Virus record (IMG/VR): IMGVR_UViG_3300027973_000075
Location: 1-49,162 of that record
From: a virus
Length of the DNA: 49,162 nt
Direction: 5' to 3' (one strand)
Positions 4,132-30,980 of the stretch are shown one piece after another. Made by a program: the position numbers and the translations under genes. A model generated the notes under the pieces. That model ran no database searches. It was given only the letters and a program-made list of their open reading frames with translations, and was not told the DNA's origin. Each line of letters begins with the position of its first letter. The stretch's first letter is position 1.

Positions 4132-7100
4132 ATGGCACGGTACCGCGTAGAAGCCCCCAATGGTAAAACCTATGAGGTAGAAGGCCCTGCTGGTGCAAGC
4201 AAGGACGAGGTTATCCAAGCTGTACAAGTACAAATCCAGCAACAGGAACGAGCTAGGTACAAACAAGAACGCGAAGATTTTGCTGCTCGTACTCGTGCGG
4301 CTATTCCTCCTGAACCAGTTAAAACCACCTTTCTCGGCAATGTAGCTGAATTAGGTAAAGGTGTTATCCCGGGCGCTGTGGGGCTTGGAGAAACTGCTGC
4401 CGCAGGTTTGGCTGCGCTCTTACCAGAAGAACAGGAGAAAGCAGTACGCGGTAAAGCCGCCGAAATATCCAAGTCTGTTAGGGATACGTTTGCTCCTGCT
4501 GCTGGGTACGAAGATTCTGTTGGGCGAAAGCTGGGCGAAGGTCTGGGTTCTACTTTACCGTTCTTTGCGCTTGGACCATTGGGTCTTGCGGGGCGTGTTG
4601 CTGCCGGAGGACTTGGAGCCGCTGCCGGTGCGGGTGAAGCTAGACAATCTGCGGAAGCTAAAGGAGCCACGGGATCAGAACGTCGGTTAGCCACCATTCT
4701 CGGCACTCCGGTAGGTTTGTTGGATATGCTTGCCCCCGAAGCTAAAGCATTAGAAAGTATTATTCTTACTGCCCTTAAACGTGGTGGTATCGAAGGTGCT
4801 ACTGAGGCGGCACAAAAAGTTGCACAGAACCTTATTGCCAAAGGTGTGTACGATCCGAATCAACCTATCTTTGCCGGGTCTGGTGAAGAAGGCGCGTATG
4901 GTGCAGGTGTCGGTGCACTGTCTAGTTTGTTACTGGATATGGCACTACCTAAACGCTTCCGGGGTCGTGGTACAACAAAAGAAGAAACTAATAAGACTCC
5001 ACCAGAAACTACGGGAGTACCAGAAACTGCTTCGCAAGGCGAGTTGTTTACACAAGAAGAAGCACCCGTACCTGCACAACCCGCACCTGCACAAGGTGAG
5101 TTATTTACAAAAGAAGAAGCACCCGTACCTGAACAACAAGCACCTGCACAAGCAGAAGCACAACCGGGTCAAGGAGATTTATTTAATCAACCCGCAGCCG
5201 AACCTGCTCCACAAACGCAGTTAGAGCTACCACTAGAAACCCCCGCGCAACCTGCACAACCTGCACCTGAACAACCTGCACAACCTGCGCCTGAACAACC
5301 TGCGCCTGAACAACCTGCGCCTGAACAACCTGCGCCTGAACAACCTGCGCCTGAACAACCTGCACCTGAACAACCTGCGCCTGAACAACAAGCACCTGCA
5401 CAACCACAAAAACCAGAGGCCGAGCAGCGTAAAGAAATACTTGATCAGATTGTACAAAACCCAGAAGTTAAAAATATTACTTCGGCATTTACTAAGGCGT
5501 TAAAGGAAAACAACCTTACTCCTATGTTTACGCCGAAAGAAGTGTCAGTAATCGTTAAAGCACAGGATTCCCGTTCTAAACAAGCTAAAAAGAAACCTGC
5601 ACAACCTGCACCCGCGCCAGAACAACAAGCCCCTGCACAACCTGCACCTGAACAACAAGCACCTGAACAACAAGCACCTGAACAACAAGCACCTGCACAA
5701 CCTGCACCTGCACCAGAACAACCTGCACCTGAACAACAAGCACCTGAACAACAAGCACCTGAACAACCTACGCAACAAGGTATAACCCCCGAACAGATGG
5801 ATACTATAGGCATTCCCAAAACCGCGCCGATCCGTAACCGTATAGTAAATAAAGACCTTTCGATACCGGAAGACCTTGCCTATGTACAGAAACAATTAGC
5901 GACTTTTGCTACTAATACTAAAGTTGCAGCCGATACCCGCGCACGGGTTAATAGTTTCTTGGATACATTTAAAGGAGCCACTGATGTTTCAGCTACCGAA
6001 TCTGGACCTACCACAACTGGAGTTAGCCCTAGCAGTACTGGGACAGGGGCAGGGGCAGGGGATATACAAAGTACCGGAAGAACTACAGCACCTACAAACA
6101 CAGGAGTGGGTAGCAATAGGGATGTTGCTGGAAGGACTGATGAAAGAAAAACTGAACAGCCAACTGCACTGAAAGCAGAGAAAAAAGAAGTTAAGAAGGA
6201 AACCAAACTTACCGATAAGCCGATTAACGAGCTTACCTACGATGATTGGACTTCTTTAACCGGAAGTATTCAAGGCCCTGCACGGCCTAACGCCGCTAAC
6301 GAAGATATTTCCGTAGACGATGTAACTATGCTCAGAAAGATGGTTATTAAGATCGTCAAAGACGGAGTGGCTGCTAACAAAACAAGCAAACAAATTGTTG
6401 ACCAAGTAGAAGCTTTAACTAAAGGCGGTCTGCGGCAAAACGCTATTGATAATATTTACAAGCTTGTAGAGTCGCAGAAGAAAGAATCTAAACCTTCCAA
6501 ACCTAAAGAAGCCAAGCCGACAGAGAAGAAGGAAGAGAAGCCAAAGGCGGCTAAGAGTCCTATACAGGAACAAGCCATTAAAAACTACATGACAGCGGCT
6601 AAGAACGACAAAGCCAAAGCTATCGACTATCTTGCTGCCGATATGTACAACGCTTCGTACCCAGAGAAGAACGAGTACAAAGAACTACGCCGCATATCAA
6701 GTGATCTATTGGCTGGCAAAATGCCTAGTGGTATGAAGTTTGGTAAAGAGAACAGCCACGCCACCGGTACAGGCGGTAAGTTTGGTAAAGCATTCTATGA
6801 GTCGTTAAGTGAAGCTGACCAAGCGGCGTTAATCAAACGTCTTGAGCACTACTTTGTTACTACAGAATCTAAAGCTAAGAGTACGCTCGAACAAATAAAC
6901 GCGCAACAAAGATTAGCCCGCGCAAATAAAGAAGCTATTGAAGAACCAGATGAGTTTGATTTACTTGTTAGCGCAAAACTAACTCGTCCGCTACACCCCG
7001 CTGCTGTTGATGCGTTGATAGAAGGTAATGTACTCGAAGCCCTACGGATAGTTTCCAACCAGAATCTAGGTCGTGCGTCCGATGTCGCCGCTAAGTTGGC

Positions 7101-10100
7101 AGGGGTAATGGGTAATACCAAAGTCGAGTTTGTTAAGAACTTGAAGAACGAGTCTGGTCAGCCTGTTGCGGGTATGTATGACCCGAAGACAAACACAATC
7201 CGTTTGAACGAAGATACCGGACTCAATGTACACACGTTCCTACATGAGGCAGTCCACGCAGCTACATCGCACATACTTGCAAACAAGTCACATCCTGTTA
7301 CCAAGCAGTTAACTCAACTCTATAATGATGTTAAGGGTTGGTTAGACACTGCATACGGTGCAACATCTTTGGATGAGTTTGTAGCCGAGGCCATGTCGAA
7401 CCCTGAGTTCCAAGCCAAACTGCAAGCGATCAATCCTAAAGGCGACAAGATCACTGCATGGCAGCGGTTTGTAAATACTATCGGTAACTTCTTGCGCCGT
7501 ATGGTCGGCATGGATACTAAGCCATTAGGCTCGGCATTAGATACTACAGACGCTTTGGTTACTTCTATCTTAGCTCCTGCTCCTAATATGCGTAACGCAG
7601 GGGTGCTGTATTCGATGTCGGCTACAGGTAACAGTAGCCAAGTGTTTAAAAACATTGATACTTCATTCTTAAACGCACCTAGCATCCAAGAAGGTCTAGA
7701 TAACGTTCACGAAATACTAACTGGAAAACTACCAAACACAGTAAAAAATCTTGTGCGTTCGACACTTCCATTAAACATATTGGTTGAAGAAGCGCAAAGG
7801 TATGTACCAAAAGCTAAACTAGTAGACAAGCTAGTAAACCAACGTTCGGGTAGTGAGAGCTTACGTAATCAATCTATTGAACCTGTTTTGGCTAAAGTAG
7901 AAACATGGGCGGGCAAAAACCCCGGCAAACTTGATGCCTTTAATTTCCTAGTGTACGAAAGTACGCTAACGCAGGTTGACCCGACTAAGCCGAGAAAGCT
8001 GTACGAAAACAAGACAGACAAAGACGGTAACAAGCTAGATGACGCTTGGGATAATATGCAGGACAGCCTTAAAACTGTCGGCCCAGAAGGTGCGGCGCTG
8101 TATAAAACAATGCGAGACACGTACAAGAAGTTGTACGATGAAATTCTACGTATTATTAACGCTCGTATTGACGCTGTTGCAGAAGACAAAGATCGTGCAA
8201 AAGTTATTAAGACCGAAATTTATAGCCGCTTGATGGCTCGCGGTGGGCTTGACCCGTACTTCCCGTTAACTCGTGAAGGTGATAAGTGGTTGTCGTACCA
8301 TGCTAACGGGGAATTACATGTTGAAGCGTTTGAATCAGAACGCGCACGTAAGCGGGCAATGAAAGAATATGAAGCCGCGGGTGCTACTAATTTGCAGAAA
8401 TTTGCAAACGCATCTAGTATTAATTATAACAACGCACCCCCTACGTCGTTTGTCAATGGCGTACTTAAAACGTTGGAAGCCAACAAAGTAAACCCAGAAG
8501 TAACCGAAGAAATTATGCGGTTCTTCTTGACCACGCTCCCAGAAACATCGTTTGCTCAGTCCCTCCAAGCACGTAAAGGCACAGCGGGATATAAGAAAGA
8601 TGCGGTTCGTGCGTTGCGTATGAAGACCATGAGTATCTCACGTCAGATTGCCAACATGGAATACGGCGCGAAGTTATCCCAACTAAACACTGAGATAGAA
8701 GAAGACTTCAAAGCTGCGGGTAGACCTGAAGATGCCGCCCCTTATGTTGAAGAGTTAGCCGAGCGCATAAAGTTTGCTAAAAGCCCACAGATACCTAAGG
8801 GGGCAAAACTTGCTAAGTCATTCGGCTTTGTCATGACTCTCGGCTTTAACCCGTCTTCCGCACTAGTTAACATGGCGCAAGTGCCGATGGTGGTAGTACC
8901 TTTTCTTGGAGGTAGGTACGGTGCTAAAGCTACAACCCAAGCTATCGCTCACGCTACACGTATTTATACCCAGAGCGGATTTAACCGTGAAGTTAAAACA
9001 ATTGTGCCTGTTAGTGGGACAGAAAAAACTAAAGTTAATGCTGGGCTTTCTTTAGACAACTACGACTTTGATGCGGCAAGTACCCCTGATGATGTTAAGC
9101 AATTAAAAATTTTATCCGAGGTCGCCGGAGATTTAGGGCAACTTAACCGCTCACAAATTTACGACACCTTAGACGTTACTGATCCTAAAAGTGGAATACT
9201 AGATCGTATCAATGCTGCGGCTGGGTTTGCTTTTCATCATTGCGAACGTATGAACCGTCAAGTATCGATGATTGCCGCGTACAACCTTGAGTTGGACAGA
9301 ATGAAAGCCGACGGTCGCAGAATAGACAAATCGGCTATGACTGAAGCAGCGGAAACTGCCATATATTTGACCGAGATGACTAACGGCGGTACGGCAGCAG
9401 CAGGTGCGCCTCGGATTGCACAAAGTGGTTTGGGTTCCGTTATGTTCATGTTTAAACGCTACGGCGTCTCTATGAACTACTTGTTATTTAAAACTACTAG
9501 GGAAGCATTGCACGGGGCGGATGATAAAACCAGAGTAGCCGCTATGAGCCAAGTCGCAGGTATATACGGAAGCGCCGCGTTGTTAGCTGGTGCACGAGGA
9601 CTGCCTATGTTTGGCGTACTGGCTATGTTGTACAACCTGTTTAAAGATGATGACGAAGATGATTTTGAAACCGCTACCCGTAAGTTCTTGGGTGAAGGTT
9701 TGTACAGCGGAGCAATCAACGCTACTACTGGACTAGATGTTGCGTCTCGTATTGGTCTTAGTGGGTTAATTTTCCGTGATAATAAGTACTCGGACTCTAC
9801 TTCAGTTATGGCGTCGTTGGTGGAGACGATGGGTGGCCCGGTGTTTGGCGTATGGAGTCGCGTAGAAAGAGGGTTAAAACTTATTTCTGAAGGTAATACT
9901 GAGCGTGGGCTAGAAGCAATATTACCTTCAGCAGCGGCTAACCTACTTAAATCCTATCGCTATGCCACCGAAGGTACTACTACATTGCGGGGTGACCCTA
10001 TCACTGGGGATATAAGCTCGTGGAACGTATTTGCTCAGGCATTTGGTTTTGCTCCTGCCGAATACACTCAGCAACTTGAAATTAACGCAATTAAAAAAGG

Positions 10101-10419
10101 CATAGATAAAGCAACTATTGAAAAGAAAACTAAACTGCTACGACGGTTTTATGTGGAAACACGTTTTAGTGATACCAACGCAGCCCGAGAAACCATGCAA
10201 GAGTTAATAAAACTACAGCAGAAACACCCCGGACTAGGTATATCTGCGAAAACTATTATCGCCTCAATGAAACAACACATGCGTACTTCAGCAACTATGT
10301 ACCACGGTATTACGTTAAGTAAAGGTATGCGAAACGAGTTGTTACGGGACGTTCGTGAGTTTGATGAAGGCTATGGTGGGATTGACAATCCGTTTGACGA
10401 TGACGATGACGAAGAGTAA
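4132..10419 (+). CDS. Giant polyvalent virion protein with zincin-like metallopeptidase domain
   Basis: 2095 residues, preceded by AAAGGA. Domain order: N-terminal cap (1-65); Ala/Gly-rich amphipathic stretch (about 75-190); Pro-Ala-Glu-Gln repeats (about 290-545); Lys/Glu linker; and a zincin-like site with HEAVH at 1038-1042 and the candidate third ligand E1086 in DEFVAEAM. Then come a long helical region with DPYFPLTREG at 1374-1383, a conserved-looking MTLGFNPSSALVNMAQ segment (about 1570), and an Asp/Glu-only C-terminus. This matches the concept of phage polyvalent proteins described by Iyer, Aravind and colleagues, which are packaged and delivered with DNA. The PLTREG motif resembles the PLxRFG signature of such proteins. 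Peptidase activity and injection are inferred. Confidence 0.75.
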   Translation: MARYRVEAPNGKTYEVEGPAGASKDEVIQAVQVQIQQQERARYKQEREDFAARTRAAIPPEPVKTTFLGNVAELGKGVIPGAVGLGETAAAGLAALLPEEQEKAVRGKAAEISKSVRDTFAPAAGYEDSVGRKLGEGLGSTLPFFALGPLGLAGRVAAGGLGAAAGAGEARQSAEAKGATGSERRLATILGTPVGLLDMLAPEAKALESIILTALKRGGIEGATEAAQKVAQNLIAKGVYDPNQPIFAGSGEEGAYGAGVGALSSLLLDMALPKRFRGRGTTKEETNKTPPETTGVPETASQGELFTQEEAPVPAQPAPAQGELFTKEEAPVPEQQAPAQAEAQPGQGDLFNQPAAEPAPQTQLELPLETPAQPAQPAPEQPAQPAPEQPAPEQPAPEQPAPEQPAPEQPAPEQPAPEQQAPAQPQKPEAEQRKEILDQIVQNPEVKNITSAFTKALKENNLTPMFTPKEVSVIVKAQDSRSKQAKKKPAQPAPAPEQQAPAQPAPEQQAPEQQAPEQQAPAQPAPAPEQPAPEQQAPEQQAPEQPTQQGITPEQMDTIGIPKTAPIRNRIVNKDLSIPEDLAYVQKQLATFATNTKVAADTRARVNSFLDTFKGATDVSATESGPTTTGVSPSSTGTGAGAGDIQSTGRTTAPTNTGVGSNRDVAGRTDERKTEQPTALKAEKKEVKKETKLTDKPINELTYDDWTSLTGSIQGPARPNAANEDISVDDVTMLRKMVIKIVKDGVAANKTSKQIVDQVEALTKGGLRQNAIDNIYKLVESQKKESKPSKPKEAKPTEKKEEKPKAAKSPIQEQAIKNYMTAAKNDKAKAIDYLAADMYNASYPEKNEYKELRRISSDLLAGKMPSGMKFGKENSHATGTGGKFGKAFYESLSEADQAALIKRLEHYFVTTESKAKSTLEQINAQQRLARANKEAIEEPDEFDLLVSAKLTRPLHPAAVDALIEGNVLEALRIVSNQNLGRASDVAAKLAGVMGNTKVEFVKNLKNESGQPVAGMYDPKTNTIRLNEDTGLNVHTFLHEAVHAATSHILANKSHPVTKQLTQLYNDVKGWLDTAYGATSLDEFVAEAMSNPEFQAKLQAINPKGDKITAWQRFVNTIGNFLRRMVGMDTKPLGSALDTTDALVTSILAPAPNMRNAGVLYSMSATGNSSQVFKNIDTSFLNAPSIQEGLDNVHEILTGKLPNTVKNLVRSTLPLNILVEEAQRYVPKAKLVDKLVNQRSGSESLRNQSIEPVLAKVETWAGKNPGKLDAFNFLVYESTLTQVDPTKPRKLYENKTDKDGNKLDDAWDNMQDSLKTVGPEGAALYKTMRDTYKKLYDEILRIINARIDAVAEDKDRAKVIKTEIYSRLMARGGLDPYFPLTREGDKWLSYHANGELHVEAFESERARKRAMKEYEAAGATNLQKFANASSINYNNAPPTSFVNGVLKTLEANKVNPEVTEEIMRFFLTTLPETSFAQSLQARKGTAGYKKDAVRALRMKTMSISRQIANMEYGAKLSQLNTEIEEDFKAAGRPEDAAPYVEELAERIKFAKSPQIPKGAKLAKSFGFVMTLGFNPSSALVNMAQVPMVVVPFLGGRYGAKATTQAIAHATRIYTQSGFNREVKTIVPVSGTEKTKVNAGLSLDNYDFDAASTPDDVKQLKILSEVAGDLGQLNRSQIYDTLDVTDPKSGILDRINAAAGFAFHHCERMNRQVSMIAAYNLELDRMKADGRRIDKSAMTEAAETAIYLTEMTNGGTAAAGAPRIAQSGLGSVMFMFKRYGVSMNYLLFKTTREALHGADDKTRVAAMSQVAGIYGSAALLAGARGLPMFGVLAMLYNLFKDDDEDDFETATRKFLGEGLYSGAINATTGLDVASRIGLSGLIFRDNKYSDSTSVMASLVETMGGPVFGVWSRVERGLKLISEGNTERGLEAILPSAAANLLKSYRYATEGTTTLRGDPITGDISSWNVFAQAFGFAPAEYTQQLEINAIKKGIDKATIEKKTKLLRRFYVETRFSDTNAARETMQELIKLQQKHPGLGISAKTIIASMKQHMRTSATMYHGITLSKGMRNELLRDVREFDEGYGGIDNPFDDDDDEE
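5240..5405 (+). repeat. 15-base repeat encoding Pro-Ala-Pro-Glu-Gln (block 1)
   Basis: Near-identical tandem copies of CAACCTGCGCCTGAA. The variation is almost all C[AG] third-position change. The repeat creates long spurious open frames on the minus strand. Confidence 0.9.
5597..5775 (+). repeat. 15-base repeat encoding Pro-Ala-Pro-Glu-Gln (block 2)
   Basis: A second block of the same unit, with more CAACAAGCACCTGAA variants. It is separated from block 1 by about 190 bases of non-repetitive coding sequence. Confidence 0.88.
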
Positions 10420-14498: not shown

Positions 14499-14753
14499 CT
14501 AAATATCTTCATCGGGGTTAAAATCCAACTCTAATTGGTTGGGGTTGGGGGTTACTACTTTTGGTTCAACTTCTTGCGGCGTATCGTTACGCAACACAGC
14601 CTCAACCTCAGGAAGTCTGAAGCGGTACGTGCTACCCAACTTTAGGTATGTGCTAGGCGGGATACTCTCGCTTCTGATCCAACCACGTACGGTCGATACA
14701 GACACATTAAAATATTTTGCTACCTCAATGATTGTTACGTAATGTGGTTCCAT
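14499..14753 (-). CDS. Excisionase / MerR-type HTH DNA-binding protein
   Basis: 84 residues. Residues 5-55 fit a winged-helix excisionase-like domain: TIIEVAKYFNVSVSTVRGWI is the helix-turn-helix, followed by a Tyr-Arg-Phe wing (TYRFRLPEVEAVL). The rest is an acidic tail (QLELDFNPDEDI). The start overlaps the previous stop as TAATG. In phages such proteins act as small regulators or recombination directionality factors. No integrase is visible here, so a regulatory or replication-accessory role is more likely. It is one candidate for recognising the dispersed palindromes. Confidence 0.7.
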   Translation of the reverse strand: MEPHYVTIIEVAKYFNVSVSTVRGWIRSESIPPSTYLKLGSTYRFRLPEVEAVLRNDTPQEVEPKVVTPNPNQLELDFNPDEDI

Positions 14754-22932: not shown

Positions 22933-23128
22933 ATCTATCCTCCTCACTCAACTCCTCCGTTAACCTTCTCGTTCTAAGCCTATCCAATAACATTTCACGC
23001 CTCCTCTTTGCTGTCTCGGCAGGTGTCTCGTATGATCTTTGAAACTCCTCGTTTAATATACTCAAGGCTTCCGTTATCATTTGTGAGCTAGAAAGTAACT
23101 TAGTAGGCATCTTCACTTGGCTAACCAT
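22925..23128 (-). CDS. Small charged hypothetical protein
   Basis: 67 residues, mostly helical with an Arg/Glu-rich second half (ETAKRRREMLLDRLRTRRL). The end overlaps the next start, and the start overlaps the HTH/AT-hook gene. No family is recognised. Confidence 0.5.
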   Translation of the reverse strand: MVSQVKMPTKLLSSSQMITEALSILNEEFQRSYETPAETAKRRREMLLDRLRTRRLTEELSEEDRYA

Positions 23129-23535
23129 CTACGTACCCTCGCCACTAATGTATTCCACAAACCGATAGGTGGTGTTTCTTCAATGCCGAATGGTCTCTGC
23201 GGCTTCGGTGGTATTTGTACAGGTTGCTCTCGGGAAGGTATGTACATTAGTGGCGTAGGTAGTGGCTGCATGACGGTATATTTCGGTGGGCGACCGCGCC
23301 GCTTCTCGCTGCTCGTAGGCACTGGTTTCGCTAAAGGGTCGGAAGGTGGCGACGTGCGGAGGTGAGGAGACAAACCATCTTGCTTCATCTGCCCTCTAAC
23401 TACATACACGTAGTTTATTGACACGCCTAACTTTCGAGCGATCTCTGCTGGTGTAAGTGTGCTTTGCTTAGTTAACTTCTTAATCTGTGTTGCCTTAGAT
23501 TTCTTGTGCGTCTTACGTTTATGCATGGTAACCAT
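23113..23535 (-). CDS. HTH protein with AT-hook-like RGRPPK motif
   Basis: 140 residues. A Lys-rich start is followed by a helix-turn-helix (about 27-50: LTPAEIARKLGVSINYVYVV). A linker rich in Ser/Pro leads to KRRGRPPKY (78-86), which matches the AT-hook core that inserts into the minor groove of AT-rich DNA. The C-terminal half is Pro-rich, ending with a short basic helix. The gene is preceded by operator-like palindrome copy 1 (24 bases before the ATG), so it could be an autoregulated regulator of the early block. That link is inference. Confidence 0.65.
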   Translation of the reverse strand: MVTMHKRKTHKKSKATQIKKLTKQSTLTPAEIARKLGVSINYVYVVRGQMKQDGLSPHLRTSPPSDPLAKPVPTSSEKRRGRPPKYTVMQPLPTPLMYIPSREQPVQIPPKPQRPFGIEETPPIGLWNTLVARVRRWLAK

Positions 23536-23552: not shown

Positions 23553-23852
23553 TTAATTTCTTATACCGAGGTATAAGGTTTCTGATAAATCATCCACGTT
23601 GGTTTCGTCTATTACTAGACTACGTCCACCTGCTCTCTCTATATCTCGTAGGTTCTTCTCTTGTAGTGGGGTCGGCTTACCGCCATTAGCTTTGCACTCG
23701 ATACCAATAAACCGACCGTCCAAACAAACGAGAAAGTCAGGCGCACCTGAGTTCCCATACCCGCTCGTGACAGGCATAGAATAGTATGCGCCCAACTCGT
23801 CTAAGCACTTACGTACTTTGATCTTTACTTTCTTTTCCGGTGTTGCTGCCAT
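23553..23852 (-). CDS. VRR-NUC domain nuclease
   Basis: 99 residues. The pattern GYGNSGAPDFLVCLDGRFIG followed by IECKANGGKPTPLQ is the VRR-NUC fold (PD...E-x-K with a following T-x-x-Q) of stand-alone phage nucleases, thought to act on structured DNA in repair or recombination. Length is typical of the family. Its last codons (Thr-Leu-Tyr-Leu-Gly-Ile-Arg) are formed by palindrome copy 1, so coding sequence and the putative operator overlap. Confidence 0.8.
   Translation of the reverse strand: MAATPEKKVKIKVRKCLDELGAYYSMPVTSGYGNSGAPDFLVCLDGRFIGIECKANGGKPTPLQEKNLRDIERAGGRSLVIDETNVDDLSETLYLGIRN
23560..23577. promoter_or_regulatory. Operator-like palindrome, copy 1
   Basis: CTTATACCGAGGTATAAG: 8-bp arms around a 2-base centre. 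It lies in the last codons of the VRR-NUC gene, 24 bases before the HTH/AT-hook gene start. Confidence 0.75.
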
Positions 23853-24333
23853 CGTCTAGGTATATCCAAAAGATAGATTCACTGATACGCCTACCAATAC
23901 CTTCTACTTCTTTCTTGTTAGGCTCATCCGCATCAAGCAACATCAACGCCGCAAGTTTTAACTGCATCCAATCGGGTAACTCATCAGCGTTTTCGTATGT
24001 GTCTTTGATAGTTATAACCATACCAGATTGAACAGGCCACATCATTGTATTTATTGATCGATCTTGGTTTATCGATAGTCTTACTGTTGGTGTATCTATT
24101 GCCATATGTATCTGTTCTTCCATTTCCTCCAACGGTGTGCGGATGACTATAAGATCATCTAAAAACAAATCATTAGTTATAATGATCTCGGCTGAACTGA
24201 GTACTTCTATTGGCTTACCTAGTTTTGGGTCATTCATATATATCCTCGATGCGTTAATCTTTCTGTTTGCTAAATAGGCTTCGCGTTTGTGCATTGCGTA
24301 CAGTCTTACGTTGTCATCCCACCTTGTACTCAT
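23809..24333 (-). CDS. Hypothetical protein sharing a C-terminal module with its neighbour
   Basis: 174 residues. N-terminal half mixed, with IIITNDLFLDDLIVIRTPLEE. The C-terminal part, ELPDWMQLKLAALMLLD ... VEGIGRRISESIFWIYLD, matches the C-terminus of the 310-residue protein encoded just upstream. The genes overlap by ATGA. The shared part may be an interaction domain. Function unknown. Confidence 0.55.
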   Translation of the reverse strand: MSTRWDDNVRLYAMHKREAYLANRKINASRIYMNDPKLGKPIEVLSSAEIIITNDLFLDDLIVIRTPLEEMEEQIHMAIDTPTVRLSINQDRSINTMMWPVQSGMVITIKDTYENADELPDWMQLKLAALMLLDADEPNKKEVEGIGRRISESIFWIYLDDGSNTGKESKDQST

Positions 24334-25262
24334 CGCTCCACCCAGAACGAACGCTCAGTCGCACGTTGACCTACACCCTCGATGTATTGGTGCGTATCAA
24401 CCAACATCAACGCAGCGACCTTCGCCTTAATATCATCTGGCAAGTCATCAACATTCATTACCTTGAATGTATCTTCAAAGAAATCATCATGCATTGGGTT
24501 CTTACCTTTAGGGTCTTTACACGTAGCAACGTCTGCCATTTGCATGTTACCCACCGTACGTATAGTGATGAAGTACGAACGTGTTTGCTTTTGCGTTAGC
24601 TCCTTCATGCGTTGGAACTTAGTCACAATATCCTTCGCATGTAGTTGGAAATGCACCGTACTAAATTCCACACCTTTGTTCACAAGGTTTTCTAACTCGC
24701 TTGCTAATGCGTGGTAACCTCTTATTGGGTCTATCTCTCGCTCAAAATCCCGGTTAGCAACGTAGCGTTTACTATCCAACGCCTCCTTGAATGTAGGGAA
24801 CGCAGCAACCACCAACTCAGCAGGTGAGTACGGTAACAAGTAACGCAGCGCATTCTTCAATGCTTTGTCGATGTCTCTCGTGAACACACGATGATACTGA
24901 TCACGATACTCACCATACTTTTCATTCATAATCTTGCGGCTCTCGACCATGAACTCTGGTACGTCGTTGTTGGAATTAGAATTCATGCCATAGTAGCCAT
25001 GACCTATACGTCCTAACACGTAATCACAATCATCAACGTAGACCAACACATCCGTCACCAACAAGTCTTGCCTGTTTACATTGTTGTAGCTTGCGTTGCA
25101 ATGGAACTTCACCTTCGGAAACTTAGCACGTAACTTAGTACACAAATCGTACAGTTGTGTTTTCATTGGTATGCCATCGAGGATAGCTGTACCTGCATCT
25201 ACCGTACTTGGTACTTCGAGTTTACCCATTGCTGCTACTGATATGTGAGAATACCTTGCCAT
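24330..25262 (-). CDS. Hypothetical protein of the early operon (310 residues)
   Basis: Starts at ATG 25262 with TAGGTGA upstream (a GTG 9 bases earlier is in frame). It begins ARYSHISVAAMGKLEVP and has a long helical middle. The C-terminal module DLPDDIKAKVAALMLVD ... IEGVGQRATERSFWVE is shared with the next gene. No catalytic signature is visible. It lies between a membrane microprotein and the 174-residue protein, downstream of the MoxR/VWA genes. It is probably an early cytoplasmic protein, possibly virion-independent. Confidence 0.55.
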   Translation of the reverse strand: MARYSHISVAAMGKLEVPSTVDAGTAILDGIPMKTQLYDLCTKLRAKFPKVKFHCNASYNNVNRQDLLVTDVLVYVDDCDYVLGRIGHGYYGMNSNSNNDVPEFMVESRKIMNEKYGEYRDQYHRVFTRDIDKALKNALRYLLPYSPAELVVAAFPTFKEALDSKRYVANRDFEREIDPIRGYHALASELENLVNKGVEFSTVHFQLHAKDIVTKFQRMKELTQKQTRSYFITIRTVGNMQMADVATCKDPKGKNPMHDDFFEDTFKVMNVDDLPDDIKAKVAALMLVDTHQYIEGVGQRATERSFWVER

Positions 25263-25285
25263 AATAATCACCTATAAAAATTAAA

Positions 25286-25357: not shown

Positions 25358-25457
25358 GCTTGACCCCCTTCCCCTCCCTCATCAACTTCATTTGTCGTAA
25401 CAGCTTTGCGTATATACTACGATGCGCTACATCGTACTTGCGGTATCGGGGGATCAT
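25347..25457 (-). CDS. Small basic protein (36 residues)
   Basis: MIPRYRKYDVAHRSIYAKL followed by Arg/Lys/Met-rich residues. The ATG overlaps the upstream gene's stop (ATGA) and AAGGAGAAATT precedes it. Very basic. Unknown. Confidence 0.4.
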   Translation of the reverse strand: MIPRYRKYDVAHRSIYAKLLRQMKLMREGKGVKHGH

Positions 25458-25669
25458 TGTAATTTCTCCTTGTTTGCTAACATGTCATACATCTGATCCG
25501 CCACCTCAATAAACCTACCAATAGCTTCTTCCTTACTCACACCATCGGCGTAGCATCCAGTAACAAACAGCCGCGCTAGTACATACATCATCTGGTGCGG
25601 GTTCAACTCTGTCTTACGTAAGTTAAACATAATTTCCAACGCCGCTTCCTGCATCACATCTTTATTCAT
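25454..25669 (-). CDS. Small helical hypothetical protein
   Basis: 71 residues. NKDVMQEAALEIMFNLRK ... VLARLFVTGCYADGVSKEEA, all helical. TTAGGAGAATGAG precedes the ATG, and palindrome copy 2 lies 16 bases before the start, between this gene and the end of the VWA gene. Function unknown. Confidence 0.55.
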   Translation of the reverse strand: MNKDVMQEAALEIMFNLRKTELNPHQMMYVLARLFVTGCYADGVSKEEAIGRFIEVADQMYDMLANKEKLQ

Positions 25670-25685: not shown

Positions 25686-25703
25686 CTTATACCGTGGTAT
25701 AAG
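25686..25703. promoter_or_regulatory. Operator-like palindrome, copy 2
   Basis: CTTATACCGTGGTATAAG, between the VWA gene and the 71-residue gene, 16 bases before the latter's start. Confidence 0.75.
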
Positions 25704-25710
25704 GTTTTGA

Positions 25711-26901
25711 TTAGTCAATCTCTACGTGTACGGTATGTCCGAACGGTGCAGTCGTGTTCGGGTTACCAACGATTACCCACAGGGTAGGCACAGACCACTC
25801 ACCCCAATCACCACCAAGGTAGCCATCGGTTATGATGATCACACCCTGCGGTGTTATAGCTTTCTCACGCAGGTAGTCAGACACACAATTAACGTATGTC
25901 CCACCACCACCTTTAGGTTTAGTAGACTGCAACATGTTCTGGTAATCACCCTGCTCGTAGTACTCATCCCCGCACACCTCGGTGTCCCAGTACAGCAGAC
26001 GAATCCCCGCCGGATTAACGGAATCGGCAATGTTTGCCACCTCGCCTAGTATCTGCGCGATCTCGTTAGCGCCAATAGACCCTGACATATCGTTAGCAAT
26101 AACAAGTTCACCTACTACATCCGATATACCACTAGGCATGACCATGTTGTATCCCAAGTACCTACGGTTAGGCTTAGACCACGTAGAGTAATCACTACCT
26201 GCACACGTATCACATACCCACTCACGCAAGGCAGCTTTGTAGTCCACCTTACTAGCAAGTATGTCCTCGATCAGACGCGCACCACCTGACCCATTCTTAC
26301 CTGCAAGTAACGCACCTTGACGTAGTGCTTGGTCGATAGCTTGTTCGAGTTCTTTCTTCTCGGCCTCGTCCATCTCCTCCGCACCATCCCAATCATGATC
26401 ATCCATAGACCCTTGACCTTGACCCTGACCATTCTCATCACTACTGGGTAACAACTTAAACACAGCATCGGCATCCATACCTTTGTACTTGGCATCGTAC
26501 AAACCCATACTAGGCATAGTGATGAACCCCTTACCTGCATCGTAGTCGATCAACATACCGTTGATAACATAGTCACACGCTCGGTTACACCTATCCGCGT
26601 CCAGCTTGTTCAAGTAGTCATACGTGGTTAGATGTTTCAACAAGATATGAAACACCTCGTGCAGTACAAGGAAGCGTAGCTCTGCATCGTTAAGCGTAGC
26701 CACAAAGTCGTCCAGATACCACGTATGTTTACCGTTAGTCGCAGCAGTACGTATACGCTTCGGGTTATCCTTAGTGACCACCGTATGATCACCAATCATT
26801 AACAACCCATTGATACCATCGTAATCGGTGTTGCCCATAACAGCAGCCACAGCTTTCAGTACACGATCACGTGGCGCGATCTCTTTACCAATCATTAACA
26901 T
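25711..26901 (-). CDS. VWA-like protein with N-terminal metallopeptidase domain
   Basis: 396 residues. The N-terminal domain has HEVFHILLKH (81-90), an HExxH zinc site, followed by DADRCNRACDYVIN. A Gly/Gln-rich acidic linker (about 152-190) joins it to a VWA domain with the MIDAS motif DMSGS (271-275) and later IIIITDG. This two-domain order fits the family I know as DUF2201 (putative metallopeptidase plus VWA-like). It follows the MoxR-type ATPase gene on the same strand. VWA proteins are the usual partners of MoxR ATPases. Palindrome copy 3 lies 17 bases before its start. Confidence 0.85.
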   Translation of the reverse strand: MLMIGKEIAPRDRVLKAVAAVMGNTDYDGINGLLMIGDHTVVTKDNPKRIRTAATNGKHTWYLDDFVATLNDAELRFLVLHEVFHILLKHLTTYDYLNKLDADRCNRACDYVINGMLIDYDAGKGFITMPSMGLYDAKYKGMDADAVFKLLPSSDENGQGQGQGSMDDHDWDGAEEMDEAEKKELEQAIDQALRQGALLAGKNGSGGARLIEDILASKVDYKAALREWVCDTCAGSDYSTWSKPNRRYLGYNMVMPSGISDVVGELVIANDMSGSIGANEIAQILGEVANIADSVNPAGIRLLYWDTEVCGDEYYEQGDYQNMLQSTKPKGGGGTYVNCVSDYLREKAITPQGVIIITDGYLGGDWGEWSVPTLWVIVGNPNTTAPFGHTVHVEID

Positions 26902-26918
26902 AAGTCACCTATTAAAAA

Positions 26919-26936
26919 GTTATACTGCGGTATAAG
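26919..26936. promoter_or_regulatory. Operator-like palindrome, copy 3
   Basis: GTTATACTGCGGTATAAG (most diverged, outer base changed), between the MoxR gene and the VWA gene start. Confidence 0.7.
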
Positions 26937-26944
26937 TTTATTTC

Positions 26945-28057
26945 TTACTTCTTGTCCGTCACAGCGATGAAGTTATTATCCAAGCACCACTTAGTAAACT
27001 TGGCGTTACTCATTACCTCGTCACGCTTGGCGTAGTTGTTCTTACGTACCTGCATAGCGAACATAACCTGTAACTCACGTGGCAGACGCGCAAGGTAGTC
27101 CATCCATGAGTCCATCCAGTTACGCTCGATACATGACAACGTGCGATAGACGACCATACTACAAGCGACCGGTGCAGTCGGCACATCAGCAGTAAGCGGT
27201 GACTTCTTAATAGAATCTAAGCTAGGTAACTGATCCCCAACTGCAACGAACGCAGCCAATTCAGCAGCAGCCTTGTTACCGATAGTACCGATCAATGCAG
27301 ATGTCAACTCATGCGTAGACAACTCACTACGTACCTTCAACCAATCACTTGCTGCATGACATGAACGCCATGTAAAGAACGCCTCACGACCCTTGTCTTT
27401 CGGGTGATAGATGTACTCGTTTGTTTTAGGATCATCTACCTCGTCGAACTTAGCAGCCAAGTCCTTCTTGTAACGATCATCCAATACGAACGCAATCATT
27501 ACTGGATCAATACCCTGCGGTATAGCAAAGTTCTCGACCCACTCTTCGGTTGTGCTGTTACGCATACGGAATATAGTCATACGATTACGCGCATGTGGTG
27601 GCAACAGATCACCCACACCCTCTGCACCTAGATTAGTAGTGGCAAAGATTATGCTGTCAGGATGTAGCTTGTAACCTGCGAACTCACGCTCTAACATGAA
27701 GCGCAACAGTGCATTCTTTACTGAGTTGTTAGCCTTACCGAACTCGTCGATCATTACGATCACAGGCTTACCCAAGTGAATACCCAACTCCTCATGTGGT
27801 ATGAAGCGCACACACCCATCACGATCAACGTGCTGTAACACAGGCAACGCCATGTCACCCAAGTCCTTAGTTGTGCAGTCAAAGTACACAGTAGTATGTG
27901 TAGGTAGGCGTTCGCCCAACATCTTTAGGATCGATGACTTACCTGACCCCATGTGACCCTGCACTAGGGTAGTACGACCACGATTAGCCAACATCAGGTT
28001 GACGCATTGGTTGATTGATACTTCGTAAAGTTTTGATACGTTTGATCCGTTTGACAT
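26945..28057 (-). CDS. MoxR-type AAA+ ATPase
   Basis: 370 residues from ATG 28057, which has TATAGGTGA upstream (the GTG at 28066 is in frame but is part of that site). Walker A GHMGSGKSS at 34-42, Walker B VIMIDEFGKA at 99-108, sensor 1 IIFATTNL near 140, and a probable Arg finger in PPHARNR. These fit the MoxR/dynein-related AAA+ clade. Such ATPases form rings that pair with VWA proteins to remodel targets. The VWA/metallopeptidase gene follows 43 bases downstream. Palindrome copy 4 lies 92 bases before the start. Confidence 0.85.
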   Translation of the reverse strand: MSNGSNVSKLYEVSINQCVNLMLANRGRTTLVQGHMGSGKSSILKMLGERLPTHTTVYFDCTTKDLGDMALPVLQHVDRDGCVRFIPHEELGIHLGKPVIVMIDEFGKANNSVKNALLRFMLEREFAGYKLHPDSIIFATTNLGAEGVGDLLPPHARNRMTIFRMRNSTTEEWVENFAIPQGIDPVMIAFVLDDRYKKDLAAKFDEVDDPKTNEYIYHPKDKGREAFFTWRSCHAASDWLKVRSELSTHELTSALIGTIGNKAAAELAAFVAVGDQLPSLDSIKKSPLTADVPTAPVACSMVVYRTLSCIERNWMDSWMDYLARLPRELQVMFAMQVRKNNYAKRDEVMSNAKFTKWCLDNNFIAVTDKK

Positions 28058-28109
28058 TTTATTCACCTATAAAGTTGTTAAGATTAAATTTACTACGAGT
28101 CTACATATA

Positions 28110-28196
28110 GTGGTACTACAGGACACGAACCCATGTTGTTTATAAACATCTTATACCGTGGTATAAGTCCGGCGAGTTCGAATCCCGTTTTACCAC
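28110..28196 (+). other. tRNA-like segment (degenerate or novel)
   Basis: Plus strand, 87 bases. GTGGTA (28110-28115) pairs with TACCAC (28191-28196). ATGTT/AACAT (28133-28149) is an anticodon-like arm with a 7-base loop GTTTATA, giving anticodon position TTA. Palindrome copy 4 would be a variable arm. GCGAG-TTCGAAT-CCCGT (28072+100 to 28188, i.e. 28172-28188) is a T-arm with one mismatch. The D-arm lacks the usual conserved bases, and no CCA is encoded directly after. Possibly a tRNA remnant or chance resemblance. Confidence 0.3.
28150..28167. promoter_or_regulatory. Operator-like palindrome, copy 4
   Basis: CTTATACCGTGGTATAAG, between the 304-residue gene and MoxR, inside the tRNA-like segment. 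Confidence 0.75.
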
Positions 28197-28204
28197 ACAC
28201 CTAC

Positions 28205-29119
28205 CTACCACTTCATATTGGACAATACCGCATCGACTTTACGCTTAGTCTCGGCGCGGAAATCATCGTCCTCACGCAACGCCTCAGGAGACACGCCGTA
28301 CATAGCATCCTCCAACGCGACCCGCATGTTGTCCATCTTTACATCGTTGGTTATGTTGAACTTGATAAGCAGACCCATCATGTCCTTGACGTTATCAACT
28401 AGGCTGTCCCTGAATATCTTACGTGTTGCCTTGTCTTCCTTATCTGGGTAGTCTAGCTTCTCGCTCATGTGACGTAATGAATCATACGTACGTTGCCACA
28501 CGTCATTCATCGCGTTTGTTAGCTGTTGCGTGTAGTGCTGTTGGTACTGCGACTGCAAGTACTGGGCTGCGTCCTGTCCGATATTCAACCTAAAGTCCCC
28601 CGCATCTGGGATGATCTGGTACGCATACCTGAACTTGAACTTACCTGCCAGTACATCTGCAAGCGGATAGTCATCAGTGCTAAACAAGTTACCTAGCTTT
28701 AGCTGCGCCTCACCCTGCGCCCATTGGTACGCTGTCAGAAAGTCGTTCGTTAGCTTGTGGAACTCTTGTTCGAGACGTGTTATCTCGTTGTGGTAGTCCA
28801 TGTATGCAGACGTTGGCAGCAAGCGCATCCCCATATCCGACCAAGGCATAGTGCTGTGGTAGTGGAATGTACGTACGTTGCCTGCAAACTTGTGAAGCGC
28901 ATCCAATTCGGCGCAGTCACCCAATAGCTTCTTGTGGAATGACCCTGCTCTGTCATCAGCGCCGTTGGCTTGTGTTGTTTCCTTCGTTGCCCGCTTGTCT
29001 AGCTTGCGACCTGTCCATGTACTGATTGATAGCTCCACGAACATTGCGCTACTAGCGATTGAAGGTACGGACTGCACCTCTGGTGTTGCGAGAGTCATTT
29101 GCATTAATGTGTTTTGCAT
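28205..29119 (-). CDS. Conserved protein upstream of the MoxR/VWA pair
   Basis: 304 residues from ATG 29119 with TATAGGTGAACAAA upstream. N-terminal VELSISTWTGRKLDKRATKE, then KKLLGDCAELDALHKF, PWSDMGMRLLP, and a long helical middle. From memory it resembles the DUF3150-type proteins that often lie beside MoxR and VWA genes in phages; I cannot verify this. It heads the unit carrying the ATPase and VWA genes and has promoter P1 and palindrome copy 5 in its leader. Probable partner or substrate adaptor of the MoxR complex (inference). Confidence 0.6.
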   Translation of the reverse strand: MQNTLMQMTLATPEVQSVPSIASSAMFVELSISTWTGRKLDKRATKETTQANGADDRAGSFHKKLLGDCAELDALHKFAGNVRTFHYHSTMPWSDMGMRLLPTSAYMDYHNEITRLEQEFHKLTNDFLTAYQWAQGEAQLKLGNLFSTDDYPLADVLAGKFKFRYAYQIIPDAGDFRLNIGQDAAQYLQSQYQQHYTQQLTNAMNDVWQRTYDSLRHMSEKLDYPDKEDKATRKIFRDSLVDNVKDMMGLLIKFNITNDVKMDNMRVALEDAMYGVSPEALREDDDFRAETKRKVDAVLSNMKW

Positions 29120-29155
29120 TTTGTTCACCTATAAGTTGTACTGCTGTTGGATTTT

Positions 29156-29173
29156 CTTATACCGTGGTATAAG
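29156..29173. promoter_or_regulatory. Operator-like palindrome, copy 5
   Basis: CTTATACCGTGGTATAAG, in the transcribed leader between promoter P1 and the 304-residue gene. Confidence 0.78.
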
Positions 29174-29272: not shown

Positions 29273-29473
29273 TCATGCCTCCTTCAATTTAACTTCGGGG
29301 TGCGTGACAGTATTGAATTCACGCTCCATTAATACGTCGCCCTCGTCATTGAATACGGTGATCTGTATCCACCCTTGTTTTGTGTTCTCGATCATGACGT
29401 AACCACCATCGTCACCTACGTTTATGATCACACCATCGTGTGTCCAATGCTTCTCTACTGTTAATAAGCTCAT
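29273..29473 (-). CDS. Small hypothetical protein
   Basis: 66 residues, beta-rich (HDGVIINVGDDGGYVMIEN ... ITVFNDEGDVLMEREF). The end lies just before promoter P1; the start overlaps the zinc-ribbon gene (ATGA). Unrecognised. Confidence 0.5.
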   Translation of the reverse strand: MSLLTVEKHWTHDGVIINVGDDGGYVMIENTKQGWIQITVFNDEGDVLMEREFNTVTHPEVKLKEA

Positions 29474-29703
29474 GTTGTCCTCTTTGGGTTTGTGCCGATT
29501 AAATCGGCGGGGTTATAAATGTACTGATACGCACCTTTGCTGTACGGAATCTGTACCATTGACGCTTTACGCTTACTCTCTTTCTTTGCCCGTACCTCGC
29601 CGCATTGCAAACACGTGATACGTTGTTGTTCTTTGACGCACCACTTCGCCCGTGCTGCTGGTACTTGCTCCCACAAGCAATCAACACATATATATTTAGC
29701 CAT
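29470..29703 (-). CDS. Small zinc-ribbon protein
   Basis: 77 residues. CVDC near 6-9 and CLQC near 31-34 give two CxxC knuckles about 21 residues apart. The C-terminal part is basic, with a Tyr-rich end. It likely binds zinc and perhaps nucleic acid or protein. It overlaps the upstream 48-residue gene as TAATG. Confidence 0.65.
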   Translation of the reverse strand: MAKYICVDCLWEQVPAARAKWCVKEQQRITCLQCGEVRAKKESKRKASMVQIPYSKGAYQYIYNPADLIGTNPKRTT

Positions 29704-29861: not shown

Positions 29862-30038
29862 TTAGTAACGAAGTCCAGTATTCACATCAATCAATCCAGT
29901 TAAGTCTGTGTTGTGCAAGGGTTTTGCTGCATCGCTTACGGCATTGGCAAACTCTAAGTCTGTGATAATCCCGCTACCATGCTGTGCTACTAAGTTGGCA
30001 ATGGTTTCGTGTAGTTGCTGCATTCTTTCTTGGTTCAT
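29862..30038 (-). CDS. Small hypothetical protein (58 residues)
   Basis: MNQERMQQLHETIANLVAQH then a Leu/Asp-rich tail ending GLRY. CGAGGTGACTT precedes the ATG. First gene of the unit driven by P2; palindrome copy 6 lies 27 bases before the start. Confidence 0.6.
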   Translation of the reverse strand: MNQERMQQLHETIANLVAQHGSGIITDLEFANAVSDAAKPLHNTDLTGLIDVNTGLRY

Positions 30039-30065: not shown

Positions 30066-30083
30066 CTTATACTAGAGTATAAG
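30066..30083. promoter_or_regulatory. Operator-like palindrome, copy 6
   Basis: CTTATACTAGAGTATAAG, in the leader between promoter P2 and the 58-residue gene. Confidence 0.78.
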
Positions 30084-30135: not shown

Positions 30136-30164
30136 ATTATAACACAATATGACGTCAAAGTCAA
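30136..30164 (-). promoter_or_regulatory. Promoter P2, near-duplicate of P1
   Basis: Minus strand -35 TTGACT (30164-30159), 17-base spacer, -10 TATAAT (30141-30136) preceded by GTGT. Shares CCAAATACTTGACTTTGA around the -35 with P1. A palindrome copy lies about 50 bases downstream in both. Confidence 0.8.
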
Positions 30165-30197
30165 GTATTTGGCATCGCTTGTTACCGTATGATAATG

Positions 30198-30228
30198 TTC
30201 GTAAAGTTCTTTTTTTGATTTAAATTTT
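30198..30228 (+). repeat. 31-base direct repeat, copy 1
   Basis: Begins GTTCGTAAAGTTCTTTTTTT and continues GATTTAAATTT. The second copy is at 30647-30677. Confidence 0.8.
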
Positions 30229-30350
30229 CAACGTGTTTGTCACGTGTTGAATGTTCTTAAAGTTATTTAGTGTTCGGTTTGTAAAAGTGATGTAAGTCTT
30301 TGAATATAAAGGTAAGATCGTAAAGTTCTTAAAGTTCGGTTCGAAAAAAG

Positions 30351-30409
30351 GGTTGGCGAGCCGATTTAGCTAAGTTGAGGTACAACTCCGCGAGGAGGTC
30401 AGAAAAGAC
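30351..30409. other. Cluster of short hairpins, possible structured RNA
   Basis: Within 60 bases: GGC-GA-GCC (30355-30362), TTAGCTAA (30366-30373), AGTTG/CAACT (30373-30387), CTCC-GCGA-GGAG with a GNRA tetraloop (30386-30397), and GTC/GAC (30398-30409). It is GC-richer than its surroundings. This could be a small RNA or protein-binding RNA. Confidence 0.35.
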
Positions 30410-30564
30410 AGGGAAATTTAGATTCTGGACACAACTATGTAAAAAAGACCGAACTTTCGAACATTATGATTTTTGTGAAGGTTTGATACATTTTGATAGG
30501 CAAGAAAGAGCGTTAGATACCAATAGATAACGTCAGATACAACGCATTACCACGCATTGATAAT

Positions 30565-30592
30565 GTTCGGTTTTTTTTAGGCAAAACCGAAC
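30565..30592. repeat. 10-bp perfect inverted repeat
   Basis: GTTCGGTTTT (30565-30574), 8-base loop, AAAACCGAAC (30583-30592), flanked by the recurrent GAACTTTACGAAC-type motif. Confidence 0.75.
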
Positions 30593-30646
30593 TTTTAAGA
30601 ACTTTACGAACAAACAACATTCCATATCGACAACCTTTGTTATTTG

Positions 30647-30677
30647 TTCGTAAAGTTCTTTTTTTGATTTAAATTTT
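30647..30677 (+). repeat. 31-base direct repeat, copy 2
   Basis: Same sequence as 30198-30228. It overlaps the left arm of the 27-bp inverted repeat. Confidence 0.8.
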
Positions 30678-30683
30678 AAACTA

Positions 30684-30701
30684 CTTATACTGTGGTATAA
30701 G
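30684..30701. promoter_or_regulatory. Operator-like palindrome, copy 7
   Basis: CTTATACTGTGGTATAAG, inside the spacer of the 27-bp inverted repeat. Confidence 0.72.
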
Positions 30702-30760
30702 AAAACAAAAAGATATCATTGTTGAAATAAAAAAAAGAACTTTACGAACAAATAACGTTC

Positions 30761-30794
30761 TACGCCACGCTGCTTTGGTTACTGGCATCAAGAG
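30761..30794 (+). repeat. 34-base direct repeat, copy A
   Basis: Begins TACGCCACGCTGCTTTGG. Identical to 30913-30946; a diverged third copy lies at 30823-30854. Confidence 0.85.
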
Positions 30795-30822
30795 ATATGC
30801 GTTTCAGTTATATCATGGGCTG

Positions 30823-30854
30823 TGCGCCACGCTGCTTGAGTTACTGGTATCGGG
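30823..30854 (+). repeat. 34-base repeat, diverged copy B
   Basis: TGCGCCACGCTGCTTGAG and onward; differs from copies A and C at several positions. It is directly followed by palindrome copy 8. Confidence 0.7.
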
Positions 30855-30855
30855 A

Positions 30856-30873
30856 CTTATACTGCGGTATAAG
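30856..30873. promoter_or_regulatory. Operator-like palindrome, copy 8
   Basis: CTTATACTGCGGTATAAG, directly after diverged 34-base repeat copy B. Confidence 0.72.
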
Positions 30874-30912
30874 AAAATAAAGAGAGGTTATATTGAGCCA
30901 CGCATTACGCTG

Positions 30913-30946
30913 TACGCCACGCTGCTTTGGTTACTGGCATCAAGAG
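30913..30946 (+). repeat. 34-base direct repeat, copy C
   Basis: Exact copy of 30761-30794, ending just before the terminator at 30951-30980. Confidence 0.85.
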
Positions 30947-30950
30947 GGCG

Positions 30951-30980
30951 AAAAAAAACCCCGCTTTCGCAGGGTTTTTA
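30951..30980 (-). terminator. Intrinsic terminator after the 33-residue membrane gene
   Basis: Minus strand: A-tract, CCCTGC, GAAA loop, GCGGGG, then eight T's. A clear terminator that isolates the upstream unit from the repeat region. Confidence 0.8.

Follow-up and report, generated by a model that had tools for sequence, protein, structure and literature searches.

The window analysed here is the whole 49,162-base virus record IMGVR_UViG_3300027973_000075 of IMG/VR. On its minus strand lie three consecutive genes (the triad), encoding a DUF3150-like protein, a MoxR/midasin-like AAA+ ATPase and a protein that combines a putative zinc peptidase with a VWA domain, and short palindromes recur at the starts of these and other genes of the same operon. 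Related phages keep the palindromes at orthologous gene-start positions while the palindrome sequence changes from lineage to lineage. In our preferred model the palindromes are start-associated DNA operators that would act after initiation, in a roadblock or stoperator-like manner, and would be read by a phage factor; we give this model, taken as a whole, about an even chance. The gene set itself belongs, as an ordinary member, to a known kind; it is the control elements that are unusual.

The palindrome CTTATACnnnnGTATAAG has nine copies, all within 23.5–31.8 kb of the window. Sites were counted with the half-site CTTATAC, a spacer of 4 and at most two mismatches; shuffled half-sites gave a mean of 0.21 and a maximum of 1. 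The initial annotation had placed a palindrome ahead of each triad gene, and these are present: CTTATACCGTGGTATAAG at 29156–29173, 28–36 nt from the DUF3150 start; a copy at 28150–28167, about 84–92 nt from the MoxR start; and one at 26919–26936, with one mismatch, 18 nt from the VWA start. The palindromes are not special to this cassette, and further genes of the operon have their own. Copies lie before a 71-aa gene at 25454–25669 (palindrome 25686–25703), before a gene at 23113–23535 that is helix-turn-helix (HTH)-like (23560–23577) and before 29862–30038 (30066–30083, downstream of a promoter-like site at 30164–30136). Further copies fall in a noncoding leader (30684–30701, and 30856–30873, the latter followed by a GATACCAGT repeat) and between the divergent leftward and rightward units (31793–31810).

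We scanned 80 related phage loci, taking a family to be at least three palindrome copies per locus. Such a family was found in 69 of the 80. Of 30 control chunks, drawn from out-of-lineage phages and plasmids, three had one, and late-gene chunks of the phages that carry the related loci had none (0 of 29). None was found in ~50 kb each of HTVC027P, HTVC023P, psg01, DSL-LC04 and CRP-901, which have related virion genes and no cassette, or in the N4-like loci examined; the two plasmid loci examined likewise lack one, unlike the phages here. Arms are 6–9 bp long and mostly perfect, with spacers of 0–5 bp. Within a phage the copies are alike in sequence and not only in shape, while between phages they are unlike; the related loci hold more than 20 different half-sites. 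Relatives at 40–92% protein identity have their own half-sites (GTTATAC, TTTAGGG, GTTAGTG, GTTATAA, TTTCCTA), and those of the 80 loci include GTAGTG, GTTAGGC, GTTAGTC, TAGTAA, CCTGAC, CTGTAA, TAGCCA and GTTATCA, among others. The long contig G014 showed no clear family by the half-site method; G015, missed by the half-site pattern, has six perfect TAGTCG-type copies in another scan.

The sites concentrate at gene starts. A site lies within −100 to +40 of the DUF3150 start in 43 of 54 loci (4.7 expected), of the MoxR start in 42 of 60 (5.1 expected) and of the VWA start in 25 of 68 (5.9 expected), an enrichment of ~4 to 9 times chance; about half of the DUF3150 sites are inside the first codons. 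MinM2, a Planktothrix/Synechococcus phage, likewise has start-associated palindromes (GGTTCAGnCTGAACC): judged by its deposited gene annotation, 14 of the 15 sites in its early operon fall in the 60 bp ahead of a start (2.0 expected), and most are at 18–29 bp. Selfish short repeats, dispersed and free of any regulatory function, could also be present in many copies per genome with a lineage-specific sequence, but the DNA flanking the palindromes is not copied along, late genes are without palindromes and orthologous start positions are kept despite the change of sequence; we hold this explanation to be very improbable.

Upstream of the triad, promoter P1 (29248–29220, minus strand; TTGACT-17-TATAAT with a TG extension) matches 11 of 12 consensus bases. 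With a P1-like promoter defined as at least 10 of 12 consensus bases at most 200 bp upstream of a start, 39 of 59 relatives have one ahead of DUF3150 (2.6 expected), none of 66 ahead of MoxR and none of 77 ahead of VWA, so the strong promoter that had been assigned to the cassette is borne out and its position is conserved. Because promoters stand before DUF3150 only, the triad, judged from this comparison, is one transcription unit read from one sigma70-like promoter, with palindromes downstream of the promoter or between genes. The palindrome before DUF3150 is at about +40 of P1 and does not overlap it. Such positions fit a post-initiation block and, for most sites, tell against plain occlusion of the promoter. 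Of the operator-controlled cassette proposed in the initial annotation, the single regulated unit therefore stands, while the sites prove to lie beyond the promoter, at the starts of genes, and not on the promoter itself. A role as phage promoter or activator sites was rejected, because it does not fit the DUF3150 sites that fall in the first codons, within the open reading frame (ORF). As sigma70 −10 elements, another role considered and rejected, the palindromes would fit the TATAAG and TATAAC variants but not the CCTGAC, GTAGTG and GGTTCAG types.

Start-associated palindromes might instead work in the mRNA, as hairpins near start codons to which a phage repressor of translation binds or which a nuclease cuts. 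Among 464 sites, however, there is no sign that RNA pairing is kept: the 61 core mismatches comprise 8 G-U, 6 A-C and 47 others, against about 10, 10 and 41 by chance, and G-U is thus not in excess over A-C. The RNA explanation does account for sites that lie within the first codons or 11–45 nt ahead of the start, near the Shine-Dalgarno sequence, for the ability of the site to form a hairpin (the sense strand at ~28105–28202 folds at z −4.3 against shuffles) and for the constant centre orientation of the palindromes in the window. It sits badly with spacers that are variable triplets in several phages, leaving no conserved loop, with the symmetric bases that run into the would-be loop in G003 (GGGAnnTCCC), and with sites in the noncoding leader that are distant from any start. 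The lack of an RNA-pairing preference, the shared sequence within each phage and the symmetry extending into the G003 loop make us prefer a DNA site, and we consider control at the RNA level unlikely. The segment 28105–28202 around the MoxR palindrome, whose minus-strand RNA is the one that folds better than shuffles, is a tRNA-like inverted element whose ends read GTGGTA/TACCAC and in which both strands carry T-arm-like sequences; its match to tRNA-Sec is weak (14.8 bits), and among the loci fetched it was present in the nearest relatives only.

The leader has features of its own. Some 0.9 kb (30164–31102, minus strand) is without convincing genes, carries three copies of GATnCCAGTAACnnAAGCAGCGTGGCG and contains the minimum of the cumulative GC skew, and GAnnCCAGT-like motifs follow the leader palindromes, in operon sense, in several relatives. 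The segment is a candidate origin or noncoding RNA. Were the palindromes iteron-like sites of a replication or partition factor, with gene-start positions that simply follow from intergenic space, then the several copies in the leader at the skew minimum and the adjoining second repeat, GATnCCAGT, conserved between phages, would be expected; over 5–20 kb of operon, however, most copies come one per gene and close to the start codon, and many are within coding sequence just past the start, which leaves this explanation improbable. The leader is bounded by a second strong promoter-like site (30164–30136, minus strand), upstream of 29862–30038, and by a terminator-like GCCCCCCGAAAGGGGGGC at 31102–31119, after the gene that we call ORF1 (31127–31666, minus strand). 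ORF1 may be a separate short transcript, ahead of the rest of the leftward unit, to which the promoter-like site at 30164–30136 belongs.

In their working, the palindromes as judged from sequence resemble both the stoperators and the ESAS elements of mycobacteriophages, and they are neither, because they are symmetric, short-armed and without the 13-bp Shine-Dalgarno element. Cluster A stoperators are 13-bp asymmetric sites of a known repressor of temperate phages that blocks elongation (PMC6550527, PMC9283540). Like them, the sites here are many, lie outside promoters along an operon and have a lineage-specific consensus; the elongation block, demonstrated for the stoperators, is one that we infer here. 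Unlike them, the sites are symmetric. A search of 20 records, many of them fragments, turned up no integrase, so that a virulent life style is likely. The ESAS of Cluster K are inverted repeats upstream of the starts of non-structural genes, for which the authors favour DNA-binding proteins (PMC3203893). They too stay with the same genes as the consensus changes, there by subcluster and here by lineage, but they are 17-bp imperfect repeats with spacers of 4–13 bp beside a 13-bp Shine-Dalgarno element, whereas no such element accompanies the sites here and the range of sequences is far wider.

Under the operator model a sequence-specific factor, dimeric or symmetric, would recognise the palindromes as DNA sites and, on gene-start sites downstream of the promoter, would most likely block elongation; with the factor present, expression would drop gene by gene. 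Factor and sites would have changed together, giving each phage lineage its own half-site. The leading candidate for the reader, which is a lead and not proof, is ORF1, the hypervariable first gene of the leftward operon. Its syntenic relatives (38 aligned loci) have a mean column identity of 19%, and AlphaFold2 predicts an all-helical protein (pLDDT 93), for which structure searches with Foldseek and a VIA second look returned no convincing relative (best E 1.7; best Z 5.6, over 47 residues). Mantel tests on 35 phages, with seven proteins tested and no correction, gave r 0.35 between operator distance and ORF1 distance, and ORF1 keeps a partial r of 0.195 (p 0.01) after removal of the MoxR, VWA, TerL and DUF3150 distances, as would be expected of co-evolution between ORF1 and the sites. 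Other candidates were rejected: the HTH_17 protein at 14499–14753 is conserved and has a clear HTH (E 7e-11), yet phages with differing palindromes show almost no variation in its recognition region, and the HTH-like protein at 23113–23535 was found in the closest relative only. One idea, which we hold tentatively and think rather doubtful, is that a large, aquatic and apparently virulent family of phages runs its early operon under roadblock operators with over 20 different palindrome specificities, and that the protein reading them is ORF1, hypervariable, all-helical and of no known DNA-binding family.

Several observations weigh against roadblock operators, or against ORF1 as their reader. 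ORF1 is without a recognised DNA-binding fold; no relative of it was detected in the control phages or in MinM2, and MinM2 does have the palindromes. TerL, a neighbouring gene, also keeps a partial r, of 0.283 (p 0.018). Eleven of the 80 related loci have fewer than three copies, sites are less frequent at the VWA gene and at the gene for a 310-aa protein behind the triad than at DUF3150 and MoxR, and the relatives share ancestry, so that the site counts are not independent events. Finally, the window palindromes keep one centre orientation with respect to transcription, and a symmetric site needs none.

The three minus-strand ORFs of the triad lie where the initial annotation had put three consecutive genes. 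The first (28205–29119, 304 aa; 307 aa if read as 28205–29128) matches Pfam DUF3150 at E=0.0027 and 17.5 bits, below the gathering threshold of 24.9. The same model matches five of eight aligned relatives (best E 1.6e-6), and the MinM2 homologue carries a DUF3150 annotation. AlphaFold2 models the protein at pLDDT 85; Foldseek with a VIA second look gave no convincing match (best E 0.67), and the best structural Z, 9.8, is to de novo helical bundles over residues 203–304 only. The second gene (26945–28057, minus strand, 370 aa; 373 aa if 26945–28066) matches the PHROG 1297 ATPase at E=3e-44, and midasin AAA domains are the best solved relatives of its profile (E=1.8e-18); it scores 16.4 bits with AAA_5 (cut-off 22) and 12 with bpMoxR (cut-off 27). 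Its AAA+ core is invariant in the alignment (Walker A G34..GK40, Walker B D104-E105 and sensor 1 N142), and Walker A is present in the frames of 68 of 77 relatives.

The third gene (25711–26901, minus strand, 396 aa) has two Pfam domains, the DUF2201_N zincin (E=8.7e-25; 88.3 bits, cut-off 23.2) and the DUF2201 VWA domain (E=5e-16; 59.4 bits, cut-off 26.4). An eight-row alignment shows H81-E82-H85 followed by H90, and a full MIDAS (D271-S273-S275, T335, D359), all invariant. The HExxH site and MIDAS had been noted before in this one protein, and the comparison extends them to the family: HExxHx4H, DxSxS and TDG motifs are kept in 80 of 80 relatives, which implies by conservation that both sites are used. 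The PHROG label ‘HNH endonuclease’ for the VWA family looks wrong, given the zincin and VWA domains found by Pfam.

In the characterised MoxR-VWA pairs NorQD, CbbQO and RavA-ViaA, the AAA+ ring works with a VWA adaptor to remodel its substrate, a protein. By analogy the triad would be an ATP-driven protein-remodelling machine, with the MoxR/midasin-like AAA+ protein as motor, the VWA/MIDAS part, fused to the putative zinc peptidase, as adaptor, and the DUF3150-like protein as a helical partner, all transcribed from one sigma70-like promoter ahead of the partner gene. A peptidase step is putative, as is the role of the partner. The nearest well-known relatives are gp24 and gp25 of N4, core genes of N4-like phages with no function assigned (PMC4193335, PMC2784036). 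These (PHROG 1297 and PHROG 1314), like other schitovirus pairs, also set an AAA+ ATPase beside a DUF2201-type VWA protein, and the N4-type and window VWA proteins are related over their full length at 28–33% identity. No DUF3150 relative was detected in isolated N4-like phages, and the window phage differs from them in its replication and virion gene sets.

A VWA relative is encoded in 728 of 50,697 phage records, the N4 gp25 lineage included. The version partnered with DUF3150 is rarer in isolated phages, with three records of a Planktothrix/Synechococcus phage; MinM2 and Planktothrix phage Pag-Yong1 are isolates with the system. Among environmental phages, a widespread aquatic group, this version is common, and DUF3150, MoxR and VWA occur together in all 17 long environmental contigs examined. 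The order DUF3150-MoxR-VWA holds in 65 of 66 loci; MinM2 and Burkholderiales plasmids have the same gene families together in the order MoxR-DUF3150-VWA. DUF3150 relatives are found on 44 plasmids, and in two that were examined a VWA-like gene directly follows DUF3150 and an ATP-binding gene is upstream. That gene was not matched from the phage MoxR by tblastn; its position suggests homology with it. On a Burkholderia plasmid (locus L118, 1–2075) the ATPase, DUF3150 and VWA genes have genes of the PRTRC system on one side and of type IV secretion on the other.

The rightward strand of the window carries terminase, portal and capsid genes from ~31.9 kb. The leftward strand, from ~31.7 kb down to 10.5 kb, carries polymerase, helicase and primase-helicase genes and a block of small genes, and the triad is in this replication/early block, apart from the virion genes. 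An important early role had been proposed for the triad, and its placement agrees with that; early expression and a host enzyme as target are still conjectural. A different role, as a virion-assembly chaperone or protease, has been proposed for a MoxR and metallopeptidase-vWA pair in group 2.2 jumbo phages, and a MoxR-vWA pair of an archaeal virus, cited in the same paper, serves tail assembly (Iyer et al., PMC7824862). For the window cassette we think such a role quite unlikely: the triad is on the replication strand under its own promoter, HTVC027P, HTVC023P, psg01 and CRP-901 share relatives of the terminase, portal and capsid genes and have no DUF3150 relative, plasmids carry the triad, and N4 gp24/gp25 are middle and not late transcripts (PMC4193335). 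Since phages with related capsids lack the triad and plasmids have it, a virion-only role is unlikely. The probable target of the machine in the phage is a host or replication protein and not the virion.

Confirmed as a triad, the three genes are nonetheless not the whole of the conserved unit, which extends on through 24330–25271, 23809–24333 and 23553–23852 (all minus strand). The first encodes the ~310-aa protein found after the triad in relatives, the second a 174-aa protein whose C-terminal part resembles that of the first, and searches with either match the same relatives; relatives of one or the other, as a joint cluster, are in 16 of 17 long contigs. The third is a VRR-NUC-like small nuclease gene (PHROG 93 endonuclease, E=5e-17), with a relative also in 16 of the 17. 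Upstream, a 77-aa CxxC...CxxC protein at 29470–29703, probably a zinc ribbon, is encoded before DUF3150 in 15 of 17 contigs. Anti-phage defence models gave no convincing match. Elsewhere in the window, the ORF at 4132–10419 (2095 aa) has at 5223–5823 a long array of 15-bp repeats, which is rich in Pro, Ala, Glu and Gln.

The MoxR-VWA pair has been a core pair of N4-like phages with an unassigned role, and it is now tied to a promoter, a third partner and a control element, which makes its timing and target testable. In the start-site palindromes nature supplies a series of operator variants, placed at orthologous positions across dozens of phages. Provided that one factor reads them all, its sequences set beside those of the sites would reveal how the specificity of a phage regulator shifts, and whether phages without an integrase also have immunity-like specificity groups. 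Should ORF1 indeed read them as roadblock operators, this would be an immunity-type specificity system outside the temperate phages.

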